This document shows, in pieces, positions 1,632 through 15,400 of a stretch of 15,630 bases of DNA (positions are counted from its first letter, which is position 1; every line of letters starts with the position of its first letter). Both the position numbers and the translations under genes were made by a program. The notes beneath the pieces are model-generated. The model saw only the letters and a program-made list of their open reading frames with translations, made no database searches and was not told the origin of the DNA. Source of the DNA: Rhodocyclaceae bacterium (GTDB lineage: Bacteria > Pseudomonadota > Gammaproteobacteria > Burkholderiales > Rhodocyclaceae); assembly GCA_013821865.1 (NCBI GenBank), contig PNJM01000027.1, positions 1 to 15,630 of the forward strand, given 5' to 3'.

Positions 1632-4013
1632 GTGCATCGGTTTGGCAGGGGAACCATTGCGGTGACGCGTGCCGCCCGGCTGGTGCTGGCCGTGGCCTTT
1701 GCCATGTTGCTCGCCGGCATGGCCGCCGCAGCCGCGCCCGTGACGATATACGGGACGGATTTCGTCCTGGCGGATTCCGCTGTGCCGCCCGGCGATGCGG
1801 CCGCCTGGTCAGGGCAGGCACTGCCGGACGAATGGCGCATCAGCCGGCCTCGAACGAGCGGCGTTGCCTGGTACCGCTTCCGCATTGCCCTGCCCGAGAC
1901 CCCGGGCGAAGTTCAGGCGCTCTATGTTCCGCGCGGCGGCGACAGGCTGGCCGTGTTCGTCAACGGCAGGCTGGTCGGCAGCACCGCGGAAGAAGGCGGC
2001 GAGGCCAGGCACACCTGGAAGCGGCCGTTGCTGTTCACCGTGCCGCCGGCGGCGCTGGTCGCCGGAGACAACCTGATCCATATCCGGCTGCAAGGCCGGG
2101 CCGACCACCAGAGCGGATTGTCGCCGATCGCATTCGGGCCTGAGGGATCGCTGCGCGATGCGTATTGGCGCCGCTTCGCGTTCCAGACCGTGGGGCCGGT
2201 GGGCCTGGCCGCCGCGCTCGGGCTGCTCGGCATCTTCTTCCTGATTCTGTGGTCGCGCCGCCGCGAGGACTCGACCTACGTTCTGTTCGGCGCCGCCTCG
2301 CTCGTGTGGGCGGCGCGGAACGTGCTGGATGTCCTTTTCCATCTGGCCATTCCCCAGCCGCACTGGGAAATCCTGCTGGCGGTGCTGTATCTGACCTTCG
2401 TCGGATTGCTCTGCCTGTTCAGCCTGCGTTTCGTCGGACAGGCGCTGCCGCGCTACGAACGGCTGCTGCGCTGGTCGATGCCCGCCTCGCCGGCTGTTCT
2501 CTATGCGTCGCTGCCGTGGGTGCCCGTGCTCAACTCCACCCGCTTCCTGCTGCTGTATGCCCTGGCCCTGGTTGTGCCGGCCATGCTGGTCGTGGCGCAG
2601 GCGGCGCTGTTCCAGCGCAACCTCGGCGCAATCCTGATTGCGCTGGCCGGTTTCGTGGCGTTCTGCTTCGGCGCCTACGACTGGATCGCGGTCGGCCGCC
2701 AGGGCATGTTCGACAGCGTGCGGCTGGTGCCTTATGCCGCGCCTTTCTTCACTACGGCGATCGGCTGGCTGCTCGCCCATCGCTTCATGTCGGCCTATGC
2801 GGATCTGGAGCGAATGAACATGGAACTGGACGATCGTGTCGCGCTGAAAAGCGCCGAATTGCTGAACAACCTGACCAAGCTGGAGCAGGCGAAGACCGAG
2901 GCGGAGGAGGCCAGCCGCGCCAAATCGCGATTCCTGGCCGCTGCCAGCCATGACCTGCGCCAGCCGCTGCATGCGCTCGGGTTGTTCGCCGAAAACCTCG
3001 GCATGAAGGACCGTGCGCCGGAGACGCAGGATCTGGTGCGCAATATCAGCCAGTCCGTCGAAGCGCTGGAGAAGATGTTCGCCGAACTGCTCGACATCTC
3101 TCGCCTCGACGCCGGCGCGATCAAGCTCGAGTTGCGCTGCTTTGCCATGCAGGAGATATTCGACCGGATCGCGGTCGACTTCCTGCCGCTGGCGCAGGAG
3201 AAGGGGCTGCACCTGCGCATCCGCGCCACGAAGGAATGGGCGGAGAGCGATCCCCTCATGATCGAGCGCGTCGTGCGCAATCTCGTCTCGAACGCCATCC
3301 GGTACACGGAACGGGGCGGCGTCCTTGTCGCCTGCCGCCGGCGCGGCAAGCGGCTGTGGGTGGAGGTGCGGGACAGCGGCGTGGGCATTGCCGAATCGGA
3401 GCGCGAGCGGATATTCGAGGAGTTTTACCAGGTGGGAAATGCCGAGCGCGACCGGAGCAAGGGCCTCGGGCTGGGCTTGAGCATCGTGAAGCGCTTGATG
3501 GCCTTGCTCGGAGAAAAGCTGGTTGTGAAGTCGGCTCCCGGGCGCGGCTCGGTATTTGCCGTGCGGACACGGCGGACGATTCCGCTGGCGGCGGAAGACG
3601 CGCAGGCCGGCCTGAGGGTTGAGTTCGCCGAAGGCCGGCACCTCGTTGCGCTGATCGAGGACGACAGGCTGGTGCGCTGGGCGACGGAGGAATTGCTGGC
3701 GCAGCATGGGCTGGCCGTGGCGGCTGGCGCCGACTTCCGGGAGACGCGTGACGCCTTGAACCGGGATGGTCGCGCTCCCGACCTGATCATCGCCGATTGC
3801 CGCCTGCGCGGCGGCCAGAGCGGGGTGGATGCGGCGCGTCAGCTGCGCCGGCAGTTCGGCGAGCAGATTCCGGTGCTCCTGCTGACCGGGGAGAGTTCCA
3901 GGGAAGGGCTTGCCGAGGGGATCGACAGCGGGTTTCCCATACTGAAGAAGCCGGTGATGGCCGACCGCCTGTTTGCCCGGATCGCCAAAATGCTTCCCGC
4001 TGCCTCAGCTTAA
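1632..4013 (+). CDS. Membrane-bound hybrid sensor histidine kinase with C-terminal receiver domain
   Basis: This 793-residue hybrid two-component sensor probably starts at GTG 1632, behind GGGGAGG (1621-1627). A second in-frame GTG lies at 1662. A signal-peptide-like hydrophobic N-terminus (~12-36) leads into a ~150-residue extracytoplasmic domain of beta-rich, jelly-roll appearance. Seven-odd hydrophobic segments follow between ~187 and 385, resembling the 7TMR-DISM layout, then a coiled-coil (~388-432). The H-box is SHDLRQPLHAL with His440. The ATPase domain shows the N-box (VVRNLVSNAIRY, Asn554), the G1 box DSGVGI (Asp581) and GLGLGLSIVKRLM. The receiver (~670-790) has the acidic pair Asp677/Asp678, phospho-acceptor Asp722 (IADCRL) and Lys773 (ILKKPV). 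No partner regulator adjoins it. The signal and output are unknown; a carbohydrate-like or surface cue is only a guess from the fold. Confidence 0.9.
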   Translation: MHRFGRGTIAVTRAARLVLAVAFAMLLAGMAAAAAPVTIYGTDFVLADSAVPPGDAAAWSGQALPDEWRISRPRTSGVAWYRFRIALPETPGEVQALYVPRGGDRLAVFVNGRLVGSTAEEGGEARHTWKRPLLFTVPPAALVAGDNLIHIRLQGRADHQSGLSPIAFGPEGSLRDAYWRRFAFQTVGPVGLAAALGLLGIFFLILWSRRREDSTYVLFGAASLVWAARNVLDVLFHLAIPQPHWEILLAVLYLTFVGLLCLFSLRFVGQALPRYERLLRWSMPASPAVLYASLPWVPVLNSTRFLLLYALALVVPAMLVVAQAALFQRNLGAILIALAGFVAFCFGAYDWIAVGRQGMFDSVRLVPYAAPFFTTAIGWLLAHRFMSAYADLERMNMELDDRVALKSAELLNNLTKLEQAKTEAEEASRAKSRFLAAASHDLRQPLHALGLFAENLGMKDRAPETQDLVRNISQSVEALEKMFAELLDISRLDAGAIKLELRCFAMQEIFDRIAVDFLPLAQEKGLHLRIRATKEWAESDPLMIERVVRNLVSNAIRYTERGGVLVACRRRGKRLWVEVRDSGVGIAESERERIFEEFYQVGNAERDRSKGLGLGLSIVKRLMALLGEKLVVKSAPGRGSVFAVRTRRTIPLAAEDAQAGLRVEFAEGRHLVALIEDDRLVRWATEELLAQHGLAVAAGADFRETRDALNRDGRAPDLIIADCRLRGGQSGVDAARQLRRQFGEQIPVLLLTGESSREGLAEGIDSGFPILKKPVMADRLFARIAKMLPAASA

Positions 4014-4409: not shown

Positions 4410-4423
4410 GTGCCGCGGGAATG

Positions 4424-4449
4424 AAAAAAGCCCGGCAAGCCGGGCTTTT
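4424..4449 (-). terminator. Intrinsic terminator of the cold-shock gene (bidirectional)
   Basis: AAAAGCCCGGC (4426-4436) and GCCGGGCTTTT (4439-4449) form a perfect 11-bp stem. Read on the minus strand, the hairpin runs into six T residues (complement of A4424-4429), so it terminates the cold-shock transcript. The four T residues on the plus side may also let it act as a backstop for the DUF2892 transcript. Confidence 0.85.
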
Positions 4450-4472
4450 CGGGACGATCGGTCCGTGAGGAC

Positions 4473-4679
4473 TTATTCGATCGGCCGGATGTTCGCCGCC
4501 TGCTTGCCCTTGGGGCCGGTGGTGACGTCGAAGGAGACCTTCTGGTTTTCAGTCAGGGTCTTGAAACCGGAAGCCTGAATTGCCGAGAAGTGGGCGAACA
4601 AGTCTTCGCCGCCATCGTCGGGAGTAATGAAGCCGAAGCCTTTGGCGTCGTTGAACCACTTAACAGTACCGTTTGCCAT
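4473..4679 (-). CDS. cspA: CspA-family cold-shock protein
   Basis: This 68-residue single-domain OB-fold nucleic-acid chaperone binds single-stranded RNA and DNA and melts RNA secondary structure in the cytoplasm. It shows the RNP1 motif KGFGFI (residues 13-18), the RNP2-like motif DLFAHFS (27-33) and the opening [17 protein letters not shown] typical of proteobacterial Csp proteins; the length is normal. The upstream minus-strand stretch (4680 to about 4815) is relatively AT-rich and could be the long 5' UTR common in this family. I could not identify a cold box or firm promoter there. Paralogue identity cannot be decided, so the symbol means the family. Confidence 0.95.
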
Positions 4680-4935
4680 TTTATGTATTCCAAAAATTAA
4701 GAAAGTACCGAACTACTGTCCGGCATGCACCAGGATCTCAGGGCAGGGAAAAATGACGAACAACTGAAGTACCGATAAGGATGACAGCTGGCGAACAACT
4801 CACTACCTTGGATAAATGCGCGGTGATTGTGGGTGCTGGAGGCAACTAAGTCAAGCTTTGTTTTTGCTTTGTTTTTCTGGCGCCGGTCGTTTCGTTCGCA
4901 ATGGCATGAAAGCGGCGCTTCCTCTCCGGCTTCGC
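4680..4935. other. Intergenic region between the divergent csp gene and nasT
   Basis: This region holds the presumed 5' UTR and promoter of the minus-strand cold-shock gene and the upstream control region of nasT. Visible details are a tandem duplication of GCTTTGTTTTT (4855-4865 and 4866-4876), a repeated CGAACAACT (4757-4765 and 4792-4800), an NtrC-like half site TGCACC (4726-4731) and another half site GGTGCT (4832-4837). None forms a convincing complete enhancer dyad. No RNA gene or further ORF of conviction was seen. Confidence 0.5.
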
Positions 4936-4951
4936 TGGCACACCCCTTGCT
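4936..4951 (+). promoter_or_regulatory. Sigma-54 promoter of nasT
   Basis: TGGCACA (4936-4942), four bases, then TTGCT (4947-4951) match the -24/-12 consensus TGGCACR-N4-TTGCW throughout. With C4950 taken as -12, transcription starts at about 4962, immediately before the nasT ATG at 4963. The near-zero leader is unusual. Sequence match is directly visible; activity is inferred. Confidence 0.75.
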
Positions 4952-4962
4952 CAGTCAACAGC

Positions 4963-5538
4963 ATGCTGAGCATTCTTGTCATCGACGAATCCCGCAGCCG
5001 CGCCGCCGAGATCTGCGCGGGCCTGGTGCTCGCCGGCCACCAGGTGGCGGCGGTGCTGTCCTCGGCGCTGGATCTGGCGCAGCAGGTCGAAGCCATCCAG
5101 CCCGACGTGATTCTCATCGAGACGGATTCGCCCTCGCGCGACACGCTGGAGCACCTGGCGACGCTGAACCGCGACCTGCCGCGGCCGGTGATCATCTTCG
5201 CGCAGGAGGGCGATGCCGAGTCGATCCGCCACGCCATGAAGGCCGGCGTCGCCGCCTATGTCGTGGATGGGCTGGAGGCGGCGCGCCTGAAGCCGGTGAT
5301 CGAGGTGGCGGTGGCGCGCTTCGAGGAGGACCAGGCGCTGCGGCGCGAGCTGGCCGAGGCCTCGCAGAAGCTCTCCGAGCGCAAGCTGGTCGAGCGCGCC
5401 AAGGGCATACTCATGAAATCGCGCGGCCTCGGCGAGGAGGAGGCCTACCGCGCGCTGCGCAAGCTGGCGATGGATCGCGGCCAGAACATGGCGGCGGTGG
5501 CGCGCGACCTCATCGCCATGGCGAAAGTCCTCCTGTAG
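4963..5538 (+). CDS. nasT: NasT-like ANTAR-domain antitermination regulator
   Basis: This 191-residue response regulator has an N-terminal receiver-like domain (1 to ~120) and a C-terminal ANTAR RNA-binding domain (~133-191; LSERKLVERAKGILM ... EEEAYRALRKLAM). NasT proteins bind twin-hairpin leader RNA and prevent termination ahead of nitrate-assimilation genes; exactly such a leader lies downstream at 5709-5795. The start is set by the MLSILVIDE opening; the frame is open further upstream (ATG 4906) but that extension has no family look. No Shine-Dalgarno sequence precedes the ATG and a sigma-54 promoter abuts it. The usual phospho-acceptor position is Glu53 (ILIETDSPSRD), with Asp55 two residues on. 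The usual co-regulator gene nasS is not adjacent. Confidence 0.9.
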   Translation: MLSILVIDESRSRAAEICAGLVLAGHQVAAVLSSALDLAQQVEAIQPDVILIETDSPSRDTLEHLATLNRDLPRPVIIFAQEGDAESIRHAMKAGVAAYVVDGLEAARLKPVIEVAVARFEEDQALRRELAEASQKLSERKLVERAKGILMKSRGLGEEEAYRALRKLAMDRGQNMAAVARDLIAMAKVLL

Positions 5539-5676: not shown

Positions 5677-5692
5677 TGGCACGGGCTTTGCT
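5677..5692 (+). promoter_or_regulatory. Sigma-54 promoter of the nrtABD-nirBD operon
   Basis: TGGCACG (5677-5683), GGCT, then TTGCT (5688-5692) is a full match to the sigma-54 -24/-12 consensus. With C5691 as -12 the start is near 5703, which gives a leader of about 113 nt before ATG 5816. This leader begins just before the ANTAR-type hairpins. Confidence 0.85.
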
Positions 5693-5708
5693 GATGTAGG
5701 GGCAAGCA

Positions 5709-5755
5709 CCGGGTCAACGGCGATCCGGCGGATTTCGGACAAGGGCGTCCATTCG
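5709..5755 (+). promoter_or_regulatory. ANTAR-type twin-hairpin antiterminator in the nrtA leader RNA
   Basis: Hairpin P1 pairs 5709-5715 with 5722-5728 (7 bp, one G-U) around the hexaloop AACGGC (5716-5721). Hairpin P2 pairs GGAC (5737-5740) with GTCC (5747-5750) around the hexaloop AAGGGC (5741-5746). P2 can extend by five lower pairs (5729-5733 with 5751-5755) beyond a three-base bulge, so it abuts P1. Both loops carry A at position 1 and G at position 4, the established determinants for ANTAR proteins. The 3' part of P2 is the 5' arm of the following terminator, so the two folds exclude each other. NasT from the gene just upstream is the expected ligand. Confidence 0.85.
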
Positions 5756-5795
5756 CGGGGTACTCCTCCCCCGCGGATGCGACGCCCATTTTTTT
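5743..5795 (+). terminator. Leader terminator upstream of nrtA (attenuator)
   Basis: GGGCGTC (5743-5749) pairs with GACGCCC (5781-5787). The stem continues inward from 5750-5760 to 5769-5779, giving 18 pairs with one G-U and one bulged base (C5780), and closes on an 8-nt loop. Seven T residues follow (5789-5795). The structure ends about 20 nt before the nrtA ATG, so without antitermination it should abort operon transcription. Confidence 0.9.
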
Positions 5796-5815
5796 CTGGA
5801 AACGTGGAGCATGAA

Positions 5816-7081
5816 ATGGATGACAAGCACATCGAATCGGGAATCACGCGGCGCGACTTCCTCAAGGCCACGACGCTCGCGGCCGGCGGGGCGGCGCTGA
5901 TGGGCATGGTGCCGCCCGGTGTTCGCTCGGGCGCCTGGGCCGCCGGCTCCGACGCGCCGGAGAAGAAAGAGGTGCGCATCGGCTTCATCCCGCTCACCGA
6001 CTGCTCTTCGGTGGTGATGGCGGCGGTGAACGAATTCGACAAGAAGTACGGCATCAGGATCATCCCGAGCAAGGAGGCCTCCTGGGCCGCCGTGCGCGAC
6101 AAGCTGGTGAACGGCGAACTGGATGCCGCCCACGTGCTCTACGGCCTGGTCTACGGCGTGCACCTGGGCATCGGCGGGCCGAAGAAGGACATGGCCGTGC
6201 TGATGAACCTCAACCACAACGGCCAGGCCATCACGCTTTCGAACCAGCTCAAGGAGAAGGGCGCCGTCGACGGCGCCTCGCTGAAGAAGCTCATCGCCAC
6301 GGACAAGCGCGAGTACACCTTCGCCCAGACCTTCCCCACCGGCACCCACGCCATGTGGCTCTACTACTGGCTGGCGGCGCACGACATCAACCCGATGAAG
6401 GACGTCAAGGTGATCACCGTGCCGCCGCCGCAGATGGTGGCGAACATGCGCGTCGGCAACATGGACGGCTTCTGCGTCGGCGAGCCGTGGAACAACCGCG
6501 CCATCGTGGACAGGATCGGCTTCACCGGCGTGACGACGCAGGACATCTGGACCGACCACCCGGAGAAGGTGCTCGGCACCACGGCGGAGTTCGTCGCGAA
6601 GAACCCCAACACGGCGCGCGCCATGACGGCGGCCATCATCGAGGCCGGCCGCTGGATCGACGCCTCGCTCGCCAACCGGCGCAAGACCGCCGAGACGGTG
6701 GCAGCCAAGGCCTACGTCAACACCGACATGGACGTCATCCTCGAGCGCATGCTCGGCCGCTACTCCAACGGCCTGGGCAAGACCTGGGACGACAAGAACT
6801 ACATGAAGTTCTACAACGACGGCGCGGTGAACTTCCCCTACCTCTCCGACGGCATGTGGTTCCTCACCCAGCACAAGCGCTGGGGCCTGCTCAAGCAGGA
6901 CCCGGACTACCTCGCCGTGGCGAAGGCGATCAACCGCATCGACCTCTACAAGCAGGCCGCCACCGCCGCCGGCGCCGTGCTGCCGAAGGGCGAGATGCGC
7001 AGCTCGAAGATGATCGACGGCGTGGTCTGGGACGGCAAGGATCCGAAGAAGTACGCCGGGGGTTTCAAGGTGCATGCGTAA
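5816..7081 (+). CDS. nrtA: Nitrate ABC transporter substrate-binding protein, Tat-exported (NrtA/NasF)
   Basis: This 421-residue periplasmic nitrate/nitrite-binding component of the NrtA/CmpA/NasF family captures the anion for the NrtB-NrtD importer. The N-terminus has a twin-arginine signal (T11-R-R-D-F-L-K17) followed by an alanine-rich stretch and likely cleavage near residue 42-43 (AWA-A). The mature part starts with VRIGFIPLTDCSSVVMA, characteristic of the family, with GNMDGFCVGEPWNNRA further on. ATG 5816 is chosen because GGAG (5806-5809) sits at proper spacing and the Tat motif falls where expected; the frame is open upstream but that segment is the leader RNA. NasS sensors are homologous but cytosolic, so the signal peptide argues for transport. 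It is first in a tight operon. Confidence 0.93.
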   Translation: MDDKHIESGITRRDFLKATTLAAGGAALMGMVPPGVRSGAWAAGSDAPEKKEVRIGFIPLTDCSSVVMAAVNEFDKKYGIRIIPSKEASWAAVRDKLVNGELDAAHVLYGLVYGVHLGIGGPKKDMAVLMNLNHNGQAITLSNQLKEKGAVDGASLKKLIATDKREYTFAQTFPTGTHAMWLYYWLAAHDINPMKDVKVITVPPPQMVANMRVGNMDGFCVGEPWNNRAIVDRIGFTGVTTQDIWTDHPEKVLGTTAEFVAKNPNTARAMTAAIIEAGRWIDASLANRRKTAETVAAKAYVNTDMDVILERMLGRYSNGLGKTWDDKNYMKFYNDGAVNFPYLSDGMWFLTQHKRWGLLKQDPDYLAVAKAINRIDLYKQAATAAGAVLPKGEMRSSKMIDGVVWDGKDPKKYAGGFKVHA

Positions 7082-7091
7082 GGAGAAGGTC

Positions 7092-8051
7092 ATGAGTGCC
7101 ACAGCAATGACGATCGACAACCCCGCCGCGCCGGCGGCGGAGAAGAGGCCACCCTCGGCTGCCCCTGCGGTGCAGGCCGTGGAAAATGCTTCAGCGTTTC
7201 GGCGGAGGCTAATGCCCCCCGAGGGGGCGTTATGCCGGAACCAAAAGTCAGTCTCCGCAGTACGGCGGCAGCGCCTGGGCGCGGGCTTCGCCGCCGCGCT
7301 GCGCCTGCTCCTGCCGCCCGTGCTCGGCCTGGCGGCCTTCGTCGGCATCTGGGCGCTGGTCTCGAAGTCGAGCCCGCAGCTGCCCGGCCCGGCGCTGGTA
7401 TTCGATGCGGCGGTGCAGCTGTTCTCCGATCCTTTCTACCGCAACGGGCCGAACGATCAGGGCATCGGCTGGAACATCCTCAACTCGCTGTCGCGCGTCG
7501 GCATCGGCTTCGGCCTTGCCGCGCTGGTGGGAATTCCGTTCGGCTTCATGATCGGACGCTTCAAGTTCCTCAACGACATGGCTGCACCCATCATCAGCCT
7601 GCTGCGGCCGGTCAGTCCGCTGGCCTGGCTGCCCATCGGCCTCATGGTGTTCAAGGCAGCCAACCCGGCGGCGATCTGGGTGATCTTCATCTCGGCCATC
7701 TGGCCGATGATCATCAACACCGCAGTCGGCGTGCAGCGCGTGCCCCAGGACTATCTCAACGTGGCTCGCGTGCTCAGCCTGTCGGAGTGGAAAGTGTTCA
7801 CGAAGATTCTTTTTCCGGCGGTGCTGCCCTACATGATGACCGGCGTGCGCCTGTCCATGGGCGTGGCCTGGCTGGTGATCGTGGCCGCCGAAATGCTCAC
7901 CGGCGGCGTCGGCCTGGGTTTCTGGGTGTGGGACGAATGGAACAACCTGAAGGTGGAGAACATCATCGTCGCGATCTTCATCGTCGGCGTAGTGGGTTTG
8001 CTGCTGGAGCAGGCGCTGGTGCTGCTGGCGAAGCAGTTCAGCTACGAGTGA
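7092..8051 (+). CDS. nrtB: Nitrate ABC transporter permease (NrtB/NasE)
   Basis: This 319-residue inner-membrane permease forms the nitrate channel with the NrtD ATPase. ATG 7092 follows AAGGAG (7080-7085), which overlaps the nrtA stop. About five to six hydrophobic segments begin near residue 72 ([19 protein letters not shown]). The cytoplasmic coupling loop is [26 protein letters not shown], corresponding to the EAA motif. The family signatures [13 protein letters not shown] and [15 protein letters not shown] are present. The first ~65 residues are atypical: an Ala/Pro-rich stretch and then [23 protein letters not shown], encoded partly by a strong palindrome (7210-7232). An alternative start at ATG 7212 has a poorly spaced GGAGG. 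The C-terminus is normal. Confidence 0.92.
7202..7258. repeat. Palindromic element inside the nrtB coding region
   Basis: TAATGCCCCC (7210-7219) and GGGGGCGTTA (7223-7232) form a 10-bp stem (one T-G) with a 3-nt loop. Short inverted flanks GCGGAG (7202-7207) and CTCCGC (7253-7258) bound a 57-bp segment, a multiple of three. It lies in an N-terminal extension not expected in NrtB and may be a translated REP/MITE-like insertion. The hairpin is visible; the mobile-repeat interpretation and the boundaries are inferred. Confidence 0.4.
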
Positions 8052-8889: not shown

Positions 8890-11379
8890 ATGAGAAAACC
8901 GAAACTGGTCCTGGTCGGCAACGGCATGGCCGGCGTGCGCACGCTGGAGGAACTGCTCAAGCTCGCGCCGGACCTCTACGACATCGCCGTCTTCGGCGCC
9001 GAGCCGCACGGCAACTACAACCGCATCCTGCTCTCGCCCGTGCTGGCGGGCGAGATGAAACTGCCCGAGATCATGCTCAACGATCTCGATTGGTACAAGG
9101 ACAACGACATCACCCTGCATGCGGGAAAGAAGGTCGTGCGGATCGACCGCGCCCGCCGCAAGGTCACAGCCTCCGACGGCACCGAGGAGAGCTACGACCG
9201 CCTGCTGCTTGCCACCGGCTCCCATCCATTCATGCTGCCCGTGCCGGGCAAGGACTTGCCGGGCGTTCTCGCTTACCGCGACATCGCCGACACGGAAGCG
9301 ATGATCGAGGCGGCCGCCAACCACAGGCACGCGGTGGTGATCGGCGGCGGCCTGCTCGGCCTGGAAGCCGCCAACGGCCTCAAGCTGCGCGGCATGGACG
9401 TCACCGTGGTGCATGCGGTCGACTGGCTGATGGAGCGCCAGCTCGACAAGCCCGCCGCCGACATGCTGCAGGCCTCGCTCGAAGCCAAGGGGCTCAAGTT
9501 CAAGCTGCCCAAGCTCACCTCGGAGCTGGTGCGCGGGGAATCCGGTCGCGTCTGCGCCGTGCGCTTCAAGGACGGCGAACAGATCCCGGCCGACCTGGTC
9601 GTGATGGCCGTCGGCATCCGTCCGAACACCGAACTGGCGGAATCCGCCGGCCTGCACTGCAACCGCGGCATCGTGGTGAGCGACACCATGCAGACCTACG
9701 ATCCGCGCATCTACGCCGTGGGCGAATGCGTGGCGCATCGCGGCATTGCCTATGGCCTGGTCGCGCCGCTGTTCGAGCAGGGCAAGGTTTGCGCCAACCA
9801 CCTGGCCAACTTCGGCATCGCCCGCTACGCCGGATCGACGGTGTCCACCAAGCTCAAAGTGACCGGAATCGATGTCTTCTCCGCCGGCGATTTCACGGGT
9901 GGGGCGAACACCGAGGAGATCGTGCTGCACGACCGCAGCGCCGGCGTGTACAAGAAGCTGGTTCTGAAGAACGAGCAGATCGTCGGCGCCGTGCTCTACG
10001 GCGACACGGTGGACAGCTCCTGGTATTTCCAGCTCATGCGCGACGGCAAGGACGTCGCCGGGATTCGCGACCATCTCATGTTCGGAGAGTCGCATCTCGG
10101 CAACGCCGGCCACCAGGGGCAGAGCAAAGCCGCTGTCTTGCCCGACGCGGCCGAGGTGTGCGGCTGCAACGGCGTGTGCAAGGGCACCATCGTCAAGGCG
10201 ATCAAGGAGAAAGGCCTGTTCACCCTGGAGGACGTGCGCAAGCACACCAAGGCCTCCAGTTCCTGCGGTTCGTGCACCGGCCTGGTCGAGCAGATCATCT
10301 CCTCGACGATCGGCGGCGCCTACCAGCCGCAGGACGCCATGAAGAAGGCGCTGTGCGGCTGCACCGATTACACCCACGAGGAAGTGCGCAAGACCATCCG
10401 CGAGCAGAAGCTGCTCTCCATTCCGGCGGCGATGAAGTTCCTCGAGTGGAAGACGCCCAACGGCTGCGCGACCTGCCGGCCGGCGCTCAACTACTACCTG
10501 ATCTGCGCCTGGCCGCAGGAATACGAGGACGACCCCCAGTCGCGCTTCATCAACGAGCGGGCTCACGCCAACATCCAGAAGGACGGCACCTACTCGGTGG
10601 TGCCGCGCATCCACGGCGGCGTTACCACGCCCGCCCAGCTGAAGCGCATCGCCGAGGTGGCGGAGAAATACGCCATTGCGTCGGTGAAGATCACCGGCGG
10701 CCAGCGCATCGACCTGCTCGGCGTGAAGAAGGAGGACTTGCCGAAAGTCTGGGCCGACCTCGACATGCCCTCGGGCTTCGCCTACGGCAAGTCGATCCGC
10801 ACGGTGAAGACCTGCGTCGGATCGGAGTGGTGCCGCTTCGGCGTGCAGGACTCCACCGGCCTGGGCATCGAGCTGGAGAAGGCGCTCGACCGCATGTGGG
10901 CGCCGCACAAGGTGAAGCTGGCCGTCTCCGGCTGTCCGCGCAACTGTGCCGAGGCCGGCATCAAGGACGTGGGCATCGTCGGCGTCGATTCGGGCTGGGA
11001 GATCTACATCGCCGGCAACGGCGGCATCAAGACCGAGGTCGCCCAGTTCCTGGTGAAGGTGAAGACGCGCGAGGAGGTGCTCGAATACACCGGCGCCTTC
11101 CTGCAGCTCTACCGCGAGGAGGCGCGCTATCTCGACCGCACGGTGCATTGGGTGCAGCGCATCGGCATGGACTACGTGAAGCAGCGCATCGTCACGGACG
11201 CCGCCGGCAGGAAGGCACTCCTCGACCGGCTGCTCTTCGCCTTGCAGGGCGAGAAGGATCCGTGGCGGGAGCGCGTGCAGGGCCTGCGGGCGCACGAGTT
11301 CGCGCCGATCAGGTTTTTCGACAAGGGTTCCGCTGGAGGCAAGGGAAATGAACGGATGGCTGAGAGTGTGTCTGCTTGA
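8890..11379 (+). CDS. nirB: NADH-dependent assimilatory nitrite reductase, large subunit
   Basis: This 829-residue cytoplasmic enzyme reduces nitrite to ammonium with six electrons from NAD(P)H through FAD, Fe-S centres and siroheme. An FAD motif opens the protein (GNGMAGV, Gly10-Gly15) and a second GxGxxG (GGGLLG, ~152-157) binds the nicotinamide cofactor. Two BFD-type [2Fe-2S] modules follow: Cys424/426/459/462 and Cys489/491/526/529. The sulfite/nitrite reductase half-domain precedes the siroheme/[4Fe-4S] ligands Cys642-X5-Cys648 and Cys682-X3-Cys686. Length is near E. coli NirB. ATG 8890 follows GGAGAAG (8879-8885). The 3' end overlaps nirD by 32 bp, which suggests translational coupling. 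Nitrogen-assimilation context makes it the functional NasB; dissimilatory detoxification is the less likely alternative. Confidence 0.97.
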   Translation: MRKPKLVLVGNGMAGVRTLEELLKLAPDLYDIAVFGAEPHGNYNRILLSPVLAGEMKLPEIMLNDLDWYKDNDITLHAGKKVVRIDRARRKVTASDGTEESYDRLLLATGSHPFMLPVPGKDLPGVLAYRDIADTEAMIEAAANHRHAVVIGGGLLGLEAANGLKLRGMDVTVVHAVDWLMERQLDKPAADMLQASLEAKGLKFKLPKLTSELVRGESGRVCAVRFKDGEQIPADLVVMAVGIRPNTELAESAGLHCNRGIVVSDTMQTYDPRIYAVGECVAHRGIAYGLVAPLFEQGKVCANHLANFGIARYAGSTVSTKLKVTGIDVFSAGDFTGGANTEEIVLHDRSAGVYKKLVLKNEQIVGAVLYGDTVDSSWYFQLMRDGKDVAGIRDHLMFGESHLGNAGHQGQSKAAVLPDAAEVCGCNGVCKGTIVKAIKEKGLFTLEDVRKHTKASSSCGSCTGLVEQIISSTIGGAYQPQDAMKKALCGCTDYTHEEVRKTIREQKLLSIPAAMKFLEWKTPNGCATCRPALNYYLICAWPQEYEDDPQSRFINERAHANIQKDGTYSVVPRIHGGVTTPAQLKRIAEVAEKYAIASVKITGGQRIDLLGVKKEDLPKVWADLDMPSGFAYGKSIRTVKTCVGSEWCRFGVQDSTGLGIELEKALDRMWAPHKVKLAVSGCPRNCAEAGIKDVGIVGVDSGWEIYIAGNGGIKTEVAQFLVKVKTREEVLEYTGAFLQLYREEARYLDRTVHWVQRIGMDYVKQRIVTDAAGRKALLDRLLFALQGEKDPWRERVQGLRAHEFAPIRFFDKGSAGGKGNERMAESVSA

Positions 11380-11659
11380 GGAAATTCCGCCGCTTGGCGC
11401 GCGGGTGGTGAACGCCGGCAAGGGCGATATCGCGGTGTTCCGCGGCGCGGACGACGAGGTGTTCGCGGTGGATGACCGCTGCCCCCACAAGGGCGGCCCG
11501 CTCTCGCAGGGCATCGTCGCCGGCCGCCGCGTCACCTGCCCGCTGCACGGCATGAACATCCAGCTCGACAGCGGCGAGGCGGTGGCGCCGGACACCGGCT
11601 GCACGCACCGCTACGCGGCGCGCGTGGACGCCGGCGCAGTCTTCATCGACTTGAGGTAA
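11348..11659 (+). CDS. nirD: Nitrite reductase small subunit, Rieske-type
   Basis: This 103-residue Rieske-fold partner of NirB completes the NADH-nitrite reductase. The full Rieske ligand set is present: Cys45-Pro-His47 and Cys64-Pro-Leu-His67. It can therefore bind a [2Fe-2S] cluster, unlike enterobacterial NirD, which from memory has lost these residues. ATG 11348 lies inside the end of nirB, eight bases after GGAGG (11335-11339). It is the last gene of the plus-strand operon and ends 22 bp before the convergent nasA stop. Family and context agree strongly. Confidence 0.95.
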   Translation: MNGWLRVCLLEEIPPLGARVVNAGKGDIAVFRGADDEVFAVDDRCPHKGGPLSQGIVAGRRVTCPLHGMNIQLDSGEAVAPDTGCTHRYAARVDAGAVFIDLR

Positions 11660-11669
11660 TCAGGGGATC

Positions 11670-11697
11670 CCGCGCGGCGCGCTACGCCGCCGCGCGG
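11670..11697. terminator. Shared GC hairpin between convergent nirD and nasA
   Basis: CCGCGCGGCG (11670-11679) and CGCCGCGCGG (11688-11697) form a perfect 10-bp stem with an 8-nt loop that contains the nasA stop codon (11682-11684). There is no T-tract on either side. It probably serves as a common 3' end structure for the two converging transcripts; strict terminator function is unproven. Confidence 0.45.
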
Positions 11698-14393
11698 TTC
11701 CCGACGATCAGTCGCTTCAGCTCCGGCACACACGACCCGCAGCCGGTGCCGCAGCGCAGCCCCTCCTGCAGCGTATCGAGGGAAGCGCCCGCGGCAACGG
11801 CGGCGAGAATGTCCGCTTCGGCTACGTTGTTGCAGGAGCAGACGACGCGGCCCCGTGCAACCATGCCCTCGGGGGGCGCCGCCATCGGCGCCAGCAGCCA
11901 GCGGCGCACATCATCGGCCGGCCGGCCGGCGACGACCAAATCCTTGAGCCAGCCTCCCGCGGCTGTTTCCCCGGCGAGATGCACGCCCACCAGTCGTCCC
12001 TCCTCGATGCGCGCCTTCTTGCGGATGCCGCGCCGGCGGTCGTGGTAGCTCAGGCAGCCGGCATCCTCCATGCCCAGGATGCGGTCGATCGCGTCGAGCC
12101 ATTCCGACGGCGCCGGGACATCGTTGGCCAGCCGCAGCACCACTGCGGCCGTTTCGCGTCCGGCCAGGGCGAGGCCGGCATAGCCGAAGCGGCCCAGCAG
12201 CGGCTGCAGCGCCTCCATCCAGGCCAGGGCCTGGCCGTGGGCAGCCCCCTCGCTGCGCACTACGAACGCCTGCCACGGCAGATCGGCAAGGCTTGCCTGG
12301 ATCGCGGCGTGCTTGAGCTCGGGCTGTTTTGAATAGGGATCGAGGACGCCCGAGACCAGCTCGTTGGCGCCGCTGTTCGAGAGGAAGCGGCGGCCCCAGT
12401 GCATGGCGAGAAAAGCCTGTCCGGCGCGGATTTCGCCGGAGGCCGCGGCGGGCAGCACCACTTCGCCGCGGCGGCTCCTCACGGTTACCAGATCGTTCTC
12501 GCGCACGCCGCGCCGTGCCATGTCTTCGGCGTTCATCAGCAGGCGCGGCGCTTCCTCGTGATTGAACAGCTGCGGCACGCGGCCGGTGCGGCTCATGCCG
12601 TGCCACTGGTCGCGCAGGCGCCCCGTGTTGAGCTGCAGCGGAAAGCGCGCATCGGCGGACTCTGCGGTGCGCGAGCGGACAAGGGGAATGAAGCGGGCGC
12701 GACCGTCCGGCGTGGCGAAGCGGCGGTCGGCGTAGAGGCGCGCCGTTCCCTCCCGCGCACCCTCCGGGAACGGCCATTGCTGCGGGCCGCGCGCATCGAG
12801 CAGGGCGTAAGCAAGGCCGGTGATGTCGAGGTCGCGGCCGCGCGTCGTTTCCGCGTGCTCGCGGAAGATCTGCTCGGGATGGAACCAGGAAAACAGTTGC
12901 GGCGCGTCGTGGCGATCGAGGGCGCGCCCGAGATGGAGCGCGAAGTCGCGCGCGATCTGCCAGTCCGGGCGGGCCTCGCCCGGCGGCGGCACGGCACGGC
13001 CGACGCGGCCGATGCGCCGCTCGGAGTTGGTGAGCGTGCCTTCCTTTTCGCCCCACGCCGCGGCCGGCAGGAGCAGGTCGGCGTACTCGGCCGTCTCCGT
13101 GTTGCGGAAGGCCTCCTGCAGCACGACGAATTCCGCCCGGTCGAGCGCTTCGCGCACGCGCGCCTGCTGCGGCAGCGACTGCGCCGGGTTGGTGCAGGCG
13201 ATCCACAGCGCCTTGATCTCGCCGCGGCGCACCGCCTCGAACAATTCGACCGCGCTCTTGCCCGGTATTGAAGGCAGCGCCGGCACGCCCCAGAAGCGCG
13301 CCATCTCCGCCCGGTGCTCCGGGTTGCCGGGCTGCCGGTGTCCGGAGAGCAGCGTGGCCATGGCGCCGACTTCGCGACCTCCCATGGCGTTGGGCTGGCC
13401 GGTGAGCGAGAACGGGCCGGCGCCCGCCCGGCCGATCTGCCCCGTGGCGAGATGCAGGTGGATCAGCGCGGCGCCGTTGTGCGTGCCGTGCGCGGACTGG
13501 TTGAGTCCCTGGCACCACAGCGACAGCGCCGCCTTCGCGCCGCCGAACCAGCGCGCCGCGGTGACGATGTCCTCGGCGGCGATGCCGCAGACCGATGCCG
13601 CCACGGCCGGCGTGATTTCCCGCACGGCGTCGCGCAGCGCGTCGAAGCCTTCGGTATGGTCGCGAATGAAGTCGCGGTCGATCAAATCCTCCCACAGCAA
13701 CACGTGCAGCATGGCGCTGTAGAGGGTCACGTCGGTTCCGGGCAGCAGGGCCAGGTGCAGGTCGGCGCAGGCAGCCGTATCGGTGCGGCGCGGATCGACG
13801 ACGATCAGCCTGAGTTCCGGGTTGGCGCGGCGGGCATCCTCGATGCGGCGGAACACGATGGGATGCGCGTAGGCCGTGTTGGAGCCGGCGATGAGGATGC
13901 AGTCGGCCGCGGCGAGATCATCAAAGCTGCACGGCGGCGCATCGGCGCCGAGGGTCTGCGTGTAGGCCGCCACGGCCGAGGACATGCACAGGCGCGAATT
14001 GCTGTCGATGTTGTTGGTGCCGACGAGCGCCCGCGCCAGCTTGTTGAAGACATAGTAGTCCTCGGTCAGCAGCTGGCCGGAGACGTAGAAGGCGACGGCA
14101 TCGGGGCCATGCTCGCGGATGGTGCGGGCGAAGCGTTGCGCCGCATAGCCGAGTGCCAGATCCCAGCTGACGGGGCGGCGATGTTCTTCCCGCGCCGGAC
14201 GCAATGCCGGATGGAGCAGGCGGCCTTCATGCCGGGCCGTCAGATGAAGGGTCGCGCCCTTGCTGCACAGGCGGCCGAAGTTGGCCGGATGATCGGGGTC
14301 GCCGTGCACGCCGGTGATGCGGTCGCCGTCCGATTCGATGATGACGCCGCAGCCGGTGCCGCAGTAACAGCAGGTTGTCTTGGTTTCGCTCAT
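11682..14393 (-). CDS. nasA: Assimilatory nitrate reductase catalytic subunit
   Basis: This 903-residue cytoplasmic molybdoenzyme reduces nitrate to nitrite. The N-terminal [4Fe-4S] ligands are Cys8, Cys11, Cys15 and Cys43 (CCYCGTGCG ... GRLCSKG). The predicted Mo ligand is Cys136 in NSRLCMSSAVAAY, as in Nap/Nas enzymes. The molybdopterin dinucleotide-binding domain lies about 590-700 (LNTGRLRDQWHGMSRTGR). A C-terminal BFD-type [2Fe-2S] module closes the protein (VCSCNNVAEADIL ... RCGTGCGSC). The start is fixed: an in-frame TAG lies three codons upstream (14400-14402). There is no Shine-Dalgarno sequence and a sigma-54 promoter ends 14 nt before the ATG. No separate NADH-reductase subunit (nasC) is visible, so the electron donor may be a ferredoxin or flavodoxin, or may be encoded elsewhere. 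Confidence 0.97.
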   Translation of the reverse strand: MSETKTTCCYCGTGCGVIIESDGDRITGVHGDPDHPANFGRLCSKGATLHLTARHEGRLLHPALRPAREEHRRPVSWDLALGYAAQRFARTIREHGPDAVAFYVSGQLLTEDYYVFNKLARALVGTNNIDSNSRLCMSSAVAAYTQTLGADAPPCSFDDLAAADCILIAGSNTAYAHPIVFRRIEDARRANPELRLIVVDPRRTDTAACADLHLALLPGTDVTLYSAMLHVLLWEDLIDRDFIRDHTEGFDALRDAVREITPAVAASVCGIAAEDIVTAARWFGGAKAALSLWCQGLNQSAHGTHNGAALIHLHLATGQIGRAGAGPFSLTGQPNAMGGREVGAMATLLSGHRQPGNPEHRAEMARFWGVPALPSIPGKSAVELFEAVRRGEIKALWIACTNPAQSLPQQARVREALDRAEFVVLQEAFRNTETAEYADLLLPAAAWGEKEGTLTNSERRIGRVGRAVPPPGEARPDWQIARDFALHLGRALDRHDAPQLFSWFHPEQIFREHAETTRGRDLDITGLAYALLDARGPQQWPFPEGAREGTARLYADRRFATPDGRARFIPLVRSRTAESADARFPLQLNTGRLRDQWHGMSRTGRVPQLFNHEEAPRLLMNAEDMARRGVRENDLVTVRSRRGEVVLPAAASGEIRAGQAFLAMHWGRRFLSNSGANELVSGVLDPYSKQPELKHAAIQASLADLPWQAFVVRSEGAAHGQALAWMEALQPLLGRFGYAGLALAGRETAAVVLRLANDVPAPSEWLDAIDRILGMEDAGCLSYHDRRRGIRKKARIEEGRLVGVHLAGETAAGGWLKDLVVAGRPADDVRRWLLAPMAAPPEGMVARGRVVCSCNNVAEADILAAVAAGASLDTLQEGLRCGTGCGSCVPELKRLIVGNRAAA

Positions 14394-14407
14394 GATGTTC
14401 TAGACGT

Positions 14408-14423
14408 AGCAACCGGCGTGCCA
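14408..14423 (-). promoter_or_regulatory. Sigma-54 promoter of nasA
   Basis: On the minus strand TGGCACG (14423-14417), CCGG, TTGCT (14412-14408) is a full match to the -24/-12 consensus. With C at 14409 as -12, transcription starts near 14397, only about 4 nt before the nasA ATG (14393). It matches the nrtA promoter heptamer and pentamer exactly. Confidence 0.8.
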
Positions 14424-14484
14424 GCGTCCTGTCGCCTGGTCGGAGAACAAGGCTGGGTGCGGATTGGCAGGTTTTTCTCCCGAG

Positions 14485-14521
14485 CGGCAGGCGCCGCCAC
14501 GGGGCGGCGGATGGCCTGCCG
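14485..14521. repeat. Nested hairpin between the nasA promoter and its enhancer
   Basis: The outer arms CGGCAGGC (14485-14492) and GCCTGCCG (14514-14521) enclose an inner stem GCCGCC (14493-14498)/GGCGGC (14503-14508) with a 4-nt loop and a 5-nt asymmetry. No suitable T-tract follows on either strand (the T run at 14472-14476 is on the wrong side), so it is not a terminator. It directly abuts the NtrC-like site and could affect DNA topology or be part of the 5' UTR of the rightward gene. Function unknown. Confidence 0.45.
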
Positions 14522-14538
14522 TGCATCAGGATGGTGCG
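14522..14538. promoter_or_regulatory. NtrC-like enhancer dyad upstream of nasA
   Basis: TGCATC (14522-14527), N5, GGTGCG (14533-14538) matches 10 of 12 positions of TGCACC-N5-GGTGCA. Its centre is about 133 bp upstream of the predicted nasA start, nearly the same distance as the nrtA dyad. A further half site GGTGCG occurs at 14456-14461. Confidence 0.6.
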
Positions 14539-14599
14539 CGAAATCGATGCCGCCGATCTGTGAGAAACTACGATCTTCCGAATCCCGACCCCATTGCAA

Positions 14600-15400
14600 A
14601 TGGAAGGCTTGGCGATCTGCCGCAAGGGCAGTTTCAAGGCGCGCGCCGTGCTCGTCGGCGAGCGCATCGACCTGCGCACCTGGGGCGGCGTGAACAGTCT
14701 CGCCACCAGCCCGCTGGCGGTGGAGGTGCAGGATGGCGGCGTCGCCGTGCTGTTCCGCTACGGCGTGGTGGTTTTCTTCGATGTCGCGCCGATGGAGGAA
14801 CTGGGCTTCCTCGACAAGCTGCGCCCCTATGTCGTGCGTCCCTATGACCATCCGGAAACGGAAGAGGTCGACGTCGCCGTCAATCCGGAGGCGCGCGACG
14901 GCGTCAGGCCGGGCGGAATCGCCTTCGAGGCGTGCTCGATGGAGCGCCTGCAGCTGGTGGCCGACATCCTCTCCAAGAGCGTGCTGCTGGCCCTCTACGA
15001 GGCGCGCGTCTCGGGCGAGTTCGACCGCGTCGAGCCGCTGGCCATGGAGCTGGAACAGAAGGGGCGCATCCCCGGCCAGGAGCGTGCCCTGCTGAAGGAC
15101 ATCGGCGCCATGCTGCTCATCGAGCAGCGCATGGTCGGGCGGGCCGAGATCAGCGAGAAGCCGGAGATCCTGTGGGACCATCCCGGCCTCGAAGGGCTGT
15201 TCGTGCGCCTGCAGGACGAGTTCGAGATCCGCGAGCGGCACCAGGCGCTGGAGCGCAAGCTCAATCTGCTCTCGCACACGGCGCAGAGCATCCTGGAACT
15301 GCTCTCCAGCCGCCACGCGCTGCGCGTCGAATGGTATATCGTCATCCTGATCGTCTTCGAGATCCTGCTTTCCCTGTATGAGATGTTCTTCAAGCACTGA
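14600..15400 (+). CDS. RMD1/DUF155-family protein with C-terminal membrane anchor
   Basis: This 266-residue protein of the DUF155 (RMD1/Sif2/YagE-type) family is known from bacteria and, in yeast and humans, from mitochondrial homologues; its biochemical role in bacteria is not established. The N-terminal part (AVLVGERIDLRTW ... VAVLFRYGVVVFFDV) is the typical beta-rich start. The middle has SKSVLLALYEARV followed by charged alpha-helical, partly coiled-coil sequence (~210-240). A single TM segment near the C-terminus (EWYIVILIVFEILLSLYEMFF) follows the usual family order. ATG 14600 is preferred; a TTG two codons earlier is possible. No clear Shine-Dalgarno sequence is seen. It is divergent from nasA and 33 bp ahead of the next gene, so those two may be co-transcribed. 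Confidence 0.85.
   Translation: MEGLAICRKGSFKARAVLVGERIDLRTWGGVNSLATSPLAVEVQDGGVAVLFRYGVVVFFDVAPMEELGFLDKLRPYVVRPYDHPETEEVDVAVNPEARDGVRPGGIAFEACSMERLQLVADILSKSVLLALYEARVSGEFDRVEPLAMELEQKGRIPGQERALLKDIGAMLLIEQRMVGRAEISEKPEILWDHPGLEGLFVRLQDEFEIRERHQALERKLNLLSHTAQSILELLSSRHALRVEWYIVILIVFEILLSLYEMFFKH

Follow-up and report, generated by a model that had tools for sequence, protein, structure and literature searches.

How close a sigma-54 promoter can stand to the gene that it drives, and whether it can stand so close that the mRNA begins on the start codon itself, is the question raised by a nitrate assimilation island in a Rhodocyclaceae bacterium (order Burkholderiales; assembly GCA_013821865.1, contig PNJM01000027.1). 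The stretch of DNA considered here over its full length of 15,630 nucleotides, referred to as the window, is contig C27 of the 548-contig genome G000 (2.76 Mb, 81.7% complete), and the island contains three sigma-54 sites, located before nasT, nrtA and nasA. In this genome and its relatives the boxes of nasT and nasA, as judged from sequence, often sit at such a distance that transcription would start on, or within a few nucleotides of, the first codon, an arrangement which looks selected; it is proposed, with a probability of roughly 0.8, that the two genes give rise to leaderless or near-leaderless mRNAs driven by NtrC and sigma-54, the spacing between box and ATG being kept constant.

Sigma-54 promoters are recognised by a GG and a GC at fixed spacing in the consensus TGGCAC-N5-TTGCW, and the nasA, nasT and nrtA sites all keep this spacing exactly; AUG, the start codon expected of a leaderless mRNA, is that of both nasA and nasT in the window (ATG in each). 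The elements on which the argument turns are the following:

14408..14423, minus strand: nasA sigma-54 (-24/-12) promoter, TGGCACGCCGGTTGCT, exact match
14394..14407, minus strand: nasA spacer, 14 nt, read from the sequence
11682..14393, minus strand: nasA, molybdopterin nitrate reductase with a C-terminal BFD-like [2Fe-2S] domain, 903 aa (open reading frame; Pfam PF04879, PF00384, PF01568, PF04324)
14523..14537, minus strand: NtrC-like dyad, GCACCATCCTGATGC, 9/10 to GCACC-N5-GGTGC, starting 114 nt upstream of the nasA -24 box
4936..4951, plus strand: nasT sigma-54 promoter, TGGCACACCCCTTGCT, exactly 11 nt before the ATG at 4963
4963..5538, plus strand: nasT, response-regulator/ANTAR antiterminator, 191 aa, predicted leaderless (Pfam PF03861, PF00072)

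On the minus strand the nasA box reads TGGCACG-CCGG-TTGCT (14423-14408) and the ATG lies at 14393-14391, just as the initial annotation had it (a perfect TGGCACG-N4-TTGCT 14 nt before the ATG). The start codon had been argued there from both sides, and both arguments hold: an in-frame TAG at 14402-14400, three codons 5' of the ATG, excludes an upstream start, and the protein, which begins MSETKTTCCYCGTGC, has its first cysteine at residue 8, matches Pfam Molybdop_Fe4S4 over residues 1-50 and offers no in-frame ATG, GTG or TTG from codon 1 to the Fe-S cysteines, which excludes a late one; on these grounds a wrong nasA start codon was ruled out as a candidate explanation. When the C of the GC box is counted as -12, the predicted +1 falls on C14397, which gives the 4-nt leader foreseen by the annotation; by the initiator position estimated from leadered relatives (see below) it would fall on A14396, with a 3-nt leader, AUC. 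The longest Shine-Dalgarno match in the window nasA spacer is 2 nt. The more general claim, that two of the three promoters place +1 at the start codon, stands for nasT, for which spacing and initiator signal predict +1 on the ATG or one base before it (leader of 0-1 nt), and has to be relaxed for nasA, where +1 is predicted 3-4 nt before the ATG. If the gap is defined as the number of nucleotides between box and start codon, window nasA, whose gap is 14, fits the short-gap class somewhat loosely.

The evidence which carries the proposal comes in the first place from nasT, present in 157 of 395 genomes of the family and in 104 of 300 genomes of the order. A survey was made of 106 loci (the best hits, those from 22 selected genomes, and 40 loci picked for genus variety), not drawn at random and partly fetched twice, from named and from unnamed sources, so that the locus counts overstate the number of independent genomes; weak hits (L265-L270, L272-L278) were excluded as other ANTAR or receiver proteins. 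The start codon was taken, blind to the promoter, as the ATG (else GTG or TTG) nearest to the conserved protein start, between -30 and +12, and the box as the best one within 120 nt scoring at least 16 of 19. A gap of 10-13 was found in 72 of the 106 loci (10 in 2, 11 in 47, 12 in 15 and 13 in 8), with further rows at 14 (1) and 15 (2), against a mean of 0.28 and a maximum of 3 for gaps of 10-13 in 200 rounds of mononucleotide shuffling; none of the 106 has its box at a gap of 16-30. Taking one row per genus (that of best score), the gap is 11-15 in 29 of 54 genera and 31-49 in 15, while 8 have no box and 2 have it elsewhere. ATG is the start codon in 74 of the 75 short-gap rows, a figure to be read knowing that the rule favoured ATG when present, and the beginning of NasT is kept as MLxxLVID across many relatives. 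Thirteen rows have their chosen start 12-30 nt further upstream than usual, and in 12 of them (L354, L364, L380, L384, which has GTG, L404-L408, L410, L412, L414) the box is found 11-15 nt before it, the exception being L413, at 31.

Outside the order, the same rule gave no box at a gap of 10-15 in the 29 nasT loci of the class that were read (from 29 of the 58 genomes with a match), the box being at 33-103 in 15 and lacking in 14; the start is doubtful in 8 of the 29, the chosen codon lying 12 nt inside the usual one. When any in-frame start from -60 to +12 was allowed, two weak boxes of score 16 appeared at gaps 15 and 13 (L456 and L467), TTGC being intact in neither. Three alphaproteobacterial nasT genes, taken from a plasmid search whose best 20 rows were all alphaproteobacterial, have no box of at least 17 within 200 nt. 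On this evidence, the short-gap arrangement would be a trait of the Burkholderiales.

What is constant in these spacers is their length, and what varies is their sequence: 45 of the 47 gap-11 nasT spacers differ from one another, with a mean pairwise identity of 0.33; in 42 of the 45 distinct ones a C or T immediately precedes the start codon. When 18 gap-11 genera are aligned on the ATG, information is high at the box (whose position is not independent evidence, the genera having been selected for gap 11), detectable at -3 and -1, and low elsewhere from -45. A Shine-Dalgarno match of at least 4 nt occurs in 14 of the 75 short-gap nasT spacers, compared with 17% of shuffled spacers, and in 49 of 55 leadered nasA within the predicted transcript, compared with 21% of shuffles; short-gap nasT spacers show no Shine-Dalgarno signal, neither depletion nor excess. 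An apparent depletion in an earlier count (9 of 75 vs about 27% of shuffles) was dropped, the stretch counted having overlapped the fixed box. An estimate of the initiator that uses no short-gap genes was obtained from the 40 unique tails of leadered nasA, of which 24 have a pyrimidine-purine step whose purine stands at position 12 after the box, as against 2-8 for the same step at positions 9-11 and 13-15; from position 12 onward the tails are also purine-rich, ribosome-binding sites beginning there. Position 12 after the box is the A of the ATG when the gap is 11.

For nasA itself 214 loci were collected (L007-L221 without L037), and the Fe-S motif was found in 211; a box was accepted if it scored at least 18 of 19 and lay no more than 160 nt 5' of the motif, the gap running from the box to the first in-frame ATG. 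L037 (same record as L010) and L156 (same genome as L052) were dropped, and L035, L036, L208 and L309, which have no Fe-S motif, were set aside. Of the 211 loci, 80 have such a box and 131 have no box of 18; among the 80, the gap is 11-15 in 17 (10 at 11, 3 at 12, 1 at 13, the window at 14 and 2 at 15), 17-31 in 55 and 52 in 1, and no such ATG exists in 7. The distribution is bimodal, the range 16-20 holding a single row (L211, at 17). One of the 17 (L156) repeats L052, and another (L094) has a further ATG in the same frame, served by a ribosome-binding site of its own, so that 15 remain; L094 and its repeat L296 were set aside, L094 being still included in the 21 short-gap rows of the tree and in the 17 of the dyad test given below. 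A search of the order added 67 loci, 66 with the motif and 26 with a box, the gap being 11-15 in 13, 23-31 in 10 and 52 in 1, and no ATG being found in 2; of these 13, 6 are repeats and 7 are new short-gap nasA (L233, L235, L236, L247, L248, L297, L302). The three nearest relatives of the window NasA have gaps of 11 (L008, 79% identity), 12 (L009, 72%) and 11 (L010, 69%), and in the window's own genus nasA is present in 3 of 16 genomes, with a short gap in all three. In-frame stops at or after the box occur also in L010, L049 and L145. As a separate observation, the NasA of G084 (L151/L223) extends back by about 20 residues beyond the usual start, to an ATG 12 nt after a sigma-54 box, with no other in-frame ATG between.

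A NasA tree (FastTree) was built from 167 loci, giving 165 proteins, 152 of them distinct, with 21 short-gap rows, 42 long-gap rows and 89 without a clear box. Short gap against the rest needs 9 changes, 8 of which are forced by starred branches, or 8 changes if L094 is counted as long-gap; the program cautions about long branches and about unevenness of composition, and a count of this kind is blind to gain versus loss. As read from this tree, the short gap of nasA is apparently spread over several separate branches, in more than one clade. The short gaps of the two genes need not go together, since in G089 the gap of nasA (L145/L328) is 13 and that of nasT (L262) is 31. The initial annotation had seen in the pattern deliberate design and not chance; the comparative tests (72 of 106 nasT loci vs 0.28, and 8-9 changes on the NasA tree) speak against chance, and design can be kept only in the sense of selective constraint.

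NtrC binds dyads of the consensus GCACC-N5-GGTGC, and the 9/10 dyad listed above supplies window nasA with a candidate site for this enhancer-binding protein. Searching up to 130 nt 5' of the box for at least 8 of 10 matches, dyads were found in 16 of 17 short-gap nasA upstreams, where 1.8 are expected, and in 52 of 55 long-gap ones, where 7.0 are expected.

Whether sigma-54 genes generally have short gaps in these genomes was answered by listing the strict sites genome by genome. The exact pattern TGGCACG-N4-TTGCW has 6 sites in G000 and none in the reversed control; two of the six are inside the window, whose nasT site is one base off this pattern, and the other four have gaps of 39-82, with closer alternatives in L006 (ATG at 0) and L001 (TTG at 1 and 6). 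A scan of the window allowing 3 mismatches was not enriched (52 found, 71.6 expected), so that the weight rests on exact sites alone. In G001 there are 9 exact TGGCAYR-N4-TTGCW sites and none in the control; the gap is 11 for nasA, 11 for nasT and 127 for nrtA, and the remaining sites lie 24 nt or more from the first ATG frame that reaches 60 codons, L281 and L287 being doubtful and nearer TTG codons existing in three. G067, G084 and G165 have 5 strict sites each (control 1, 3 and 0), and since strict hits do occur in reversed controls, a single one can be chance; nasA has a gap of 11 in G067 and 12 in G084, and the other sites of the three genomes have their likely start at 39 or more, apart from L429, which has no start, and with nearer doubtful ATG frames in L423 (2, 23, 29) and L431 (23). 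The comparison of box-to-ATG distances proposed with the initial annotation, made here on 30 strict sites of five genomes, finds the nas genes alone with a likely start at a gap of 10-15; the longer leaders at the other sites rule out the short gap as a general habit of sigma-54 genes.

Several observations weigh against the proposal. The genomes are partly metagenome-assembled, and the start codons were assigned by rule. Of the 106 nasT loci, 31 have no short gap (19 at 31-49, 1 at 0, 1 at 91 and 10 boxless), and the same is true of four nasT at named loci outside the 106 (L048, gap 29; L092, 41; L107, 69; L112, boxless); many short-gap nasT boxes, moreover, have an imperfect -24 element (CGG for TGG; 16-17 of 19). 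Most nasA loci are without the short gap, which is found in 17 rows of 211, and four short-gap nasA spacers (L008, L010, L051, L112) contain a Shine-Dalgarno match of 4-5 nt, which would serve if transcription began further upstream. Finally, the gap of window nasA is 14 and not 11, and leaderless initiation on it may be weaker in consequence of the AUC leader.

The last-mentioned matches lead to an alternative in which the sigma-54 site is genuine, yet most of the translated nasA mRNA originates at an unrecognised promoter further upstream in the intergenic stretch of about 200 nt and has a normal leader. The four spacers agree with it, and so does the scope of the promoter scan, which covered sigma-70 consensus sites only, and not those of other sigma factors; within that scope no sigma-70-like site was found in 14380-14620, where the initial annotation had named an upstream sigma-70 promoter as what would overturn its reading. 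As the window spacer has a Shine-Dalgarno match of 2 nt at most, and as short-gap nasT spacers, at shuffled level, differ so clearly from leadered nasA, this alternative is considered unlikely. Very unlikely is that the short gap merely reflects compaction and drift, leaders having shrunk unopposed with no selection for a 5'-terminal AUG: the departures of window nasA and of some others from gap 11 (to 12-15) would be natural under drift, but the pile-up at exactly 11, the emptiness of the range 16-30 in nasT and the single row at 16-20 in nasA would not, nor would a fixed length in spacers of differing sequence, the longer leaders at other strict sigma-54 sites of the same genomes, or the unused room of some 200 nt 5' of window nasA.

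Two further alternatives concern the elements themselves. Were the nasA start codon wrong, lying further down or upstream, the box distance would not be a leader length; the assignment of starts by rule leaves an opening for this, which the TAG three codons upstream, the lack of any other start before the Fe-S cysteines and the in-frame stops of L010, L049 and L145 reduce to next to nothing. Were the nasA TGGCACG-N4-TTGCT instead a chance match devoid of promoter activity, the lack of excess in the 3-mismatch scan and the strict sites in the reversed controls of G067 (1) and G084 (3) would be accounted for; the exact sites of G000 and G001, vs none in their controls, and the conservation of the box before nasA in the three nearest relatives make it hardly credible.

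If the boxes are read, as preferred here, as promoters of leaderless or near-leaderless nasT and nasA mRNAs, the following sequence of events may be envisaged. Under nitrogen shortage the sigma-54 RNA polymerase at the nasA or nasT box would be activated by NtrC, bound some 100 nt upstream; the transcript would start at the A of the AUG in nasT and in nasA of most short-gap relatives, and 3-4 nt before the AUG in window nasA; with no Shine-Dalgarno inside these mRNAs, the ribosome would initiate on the 5'-terminal AUG, whereas the nrt-nir operon would keep a long leader with a terminator, the expected control point of NasT. What sequence and comparison show directly are the sites, their spacings and the conservation of both, the lack of a Shine-Dalgarno signal, the initiator signal and the NtrC-like dyads of nasA. 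From these we infer promoter activity, NtrC as the activator, the exact +1, initiation by 70S ribosomes and control of the leader by NasT, as well as a division of labour between the nrt-nir leader and nasA, since the long leader can let NasT impose nitrate control on that operon while nasA stays outside it; as for its purpose, one may guess that nasT and nasA answer to nitrogen status alone and the transport operon to nitrogen and nitrate. According to a review (PMC9031893), 70S particles bind an AUG at or near the 5' end, and such translation drops, in some species, with the distance of the AUG from that end; this distance effect would favour gaps of 11-12 and put a 3-nt leader at a slight disadvantage. 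A wider proposal, which is put forward tentatively and at somewhat less than even odds, is that sigma-54 mRNAs which are enhancer-activated and exactly leaderless form a wide class in the Burkholderiales, centred on nasT and repeatedly gained by nasA, in which the -12 box would set the start of both transcription and translation; synthesis of regulator and reductase would then depend on 5'-AUG initiation, to the possible advantage of both proteins when nitrogen shortage alters the ribosome pool.

The remaining features of the island and the neighbour of nasA are these:

5677..5692, plus strand: sigma-54 promoter of the nrt-nir operon, TGGCACGGGCTTTGCT, exact match
5703..5815, plus strand: nrtA leader, 113 nt, with a terminator-like hairpin and T run, presumed target of NasT (from its fold; the role of NasT is a supposition)
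5816..7081, plus strand: nrtA-like nitrate ABC transporter binding protein with TAT signal (NMT1_2 PF13379, TIGR01409; named by neighbourhood)
7074..8051, plus strand: nrtB, nitrate ABC permease (TIGR01183, over its cutoff)
8890..11379, plus strand: nirB, nitrite reductase large subunit (TIGR02374, over its cutoff)
11348..11659, plus strand: nirD, nitrite reductase small subunit, running towards nasA (TIGR02378, over its cutoff)
14594-15400, plus strand: DUF155 (RMND1/Sif2-like) gene, divergent neighbour of nasA

The third sigma-54 promoter had been credited with a 113-nt leader, and this length is recovered for nrtA, with +1 near 5703 and the ATG at 5816. The leader folds at -54 kcal/mol (z -3.97; none of 200 shuffles equally stable), its GC-rich stem preceding a T run; at the gathering threshold Rfam reports no family within it, the only one found being cspA. 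Antitermination of nas leaders by NasT or NasR is known from Klebsiella nasF, Azotobacter nasAB and Paracoccus nasTS, and the window resembles these systems in having an ANTAR regulator and a terminator leader before the operon (5703-5815); unlike them, it has nasA on a sigma-54 unit of its own, with a short leader, outside that leader. The nirD gene is found directly upstream of nasA at many loci. Read-through into nasA from the DUF155 gene was considered and ruled out, as the two are divergent, which argues against it; the DUF155 gene is likewise divergent 5' of nasA in L008.

As far as the accessible text of the following papers allows a comparison, the two halves of the proposal are already known separately, namely leaderless genes with a sigma-70-type box and a predicted sigma-54 control of nas genes and NasT, and what appears to be new is their union. 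One published description (PMC3160421) is of leaderless genes whose start codon follows a -10 (TA-like) signal by about 10-12 nt; as proposed for nasT and nasA, a promoter element replaces the Shine-Dalgarno and, by its distance from the ATG, leaves a very short leader or none, but the signal resembles the Pribnow box of sigma-70 and not the enhancer-dependent sigma-54 box. A few documented cases in which another sigma factor drives a leaderless gene, among them whiH with sigma-WhiG, are also named there, and the word "sigma54" is absent from the text available. Leaderless transcripts of Burkholderia cenocepacia, a betaproteobacterium, in which regulators are over-represented, have a TA-rich motif upstream, with RpoN and nitrate unmentioned in the part accessible (PMC4603805). 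Start maps of Sinorhizobium meliloti and Bradyrhizobium japonicum report both leaderless transcripts and RpoN-type promoters (PMC3616915, PMC4842269), the accessible text leaving unsaid whether any one transcript combines the two, and single sigma-54 leaderless cases may be present in their start-site tables; the leaderless motif of B. japonicum is, however, an extended -10 box (PMC4842269), as opposed to the sigma-54 box of nasT and nasA. A set of regulon predictions (PMC12316311) assigns sigma-54 promoters to nitrate transport and nitrite reductase, and to two COGs, one of which includes nitrate reductases and the other NasT, this second one chiefly in beta- and gammaproteobacteria; unlike the present analysis, this source, in its accessible part, mentions neither leaderless genes nor start codon, UTR (untranslated region) or translation start. 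Among the papers listed by searches of the open-licence PMC literature, judged by their titles and abstract beginnings, no report of sigma-54 leaderless nas genes could be recognised. If the proposal is true, an enhancer-dependent promoter, too, can put the 5' end of an mRNA on the AUG, leaderless genes having mostly been described with sigma-70-type -10 boxes; and a gene set is at hand (many nasT, several nasA branches and leadered sister genes as controls) which lets one ask why, within a single pathway, leaderless translation should serve one gene and a regulated leader the next.

Some minor observations concern naming and neighbours. NasA stays under all curated NCBIfam cutoffs among the 25 families shown, the best being TIGR01591, formate dehydrogenase alpha (561 of 666 bits), so that automatic naming may yield "formate dehydrogenase". 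A hybrid histidine kinase near the NahK/ErcS type is encoded at 1632-4013 on the plus strand (NF041832, 317.6 bits, cutoff 400), and the Rfam cspA thermoregulator RF01766 (95.3 bits, cutoff 78) lies at 4422-4824 on the minus strand, as the leader of a cold-shock gene divergent from nasT.

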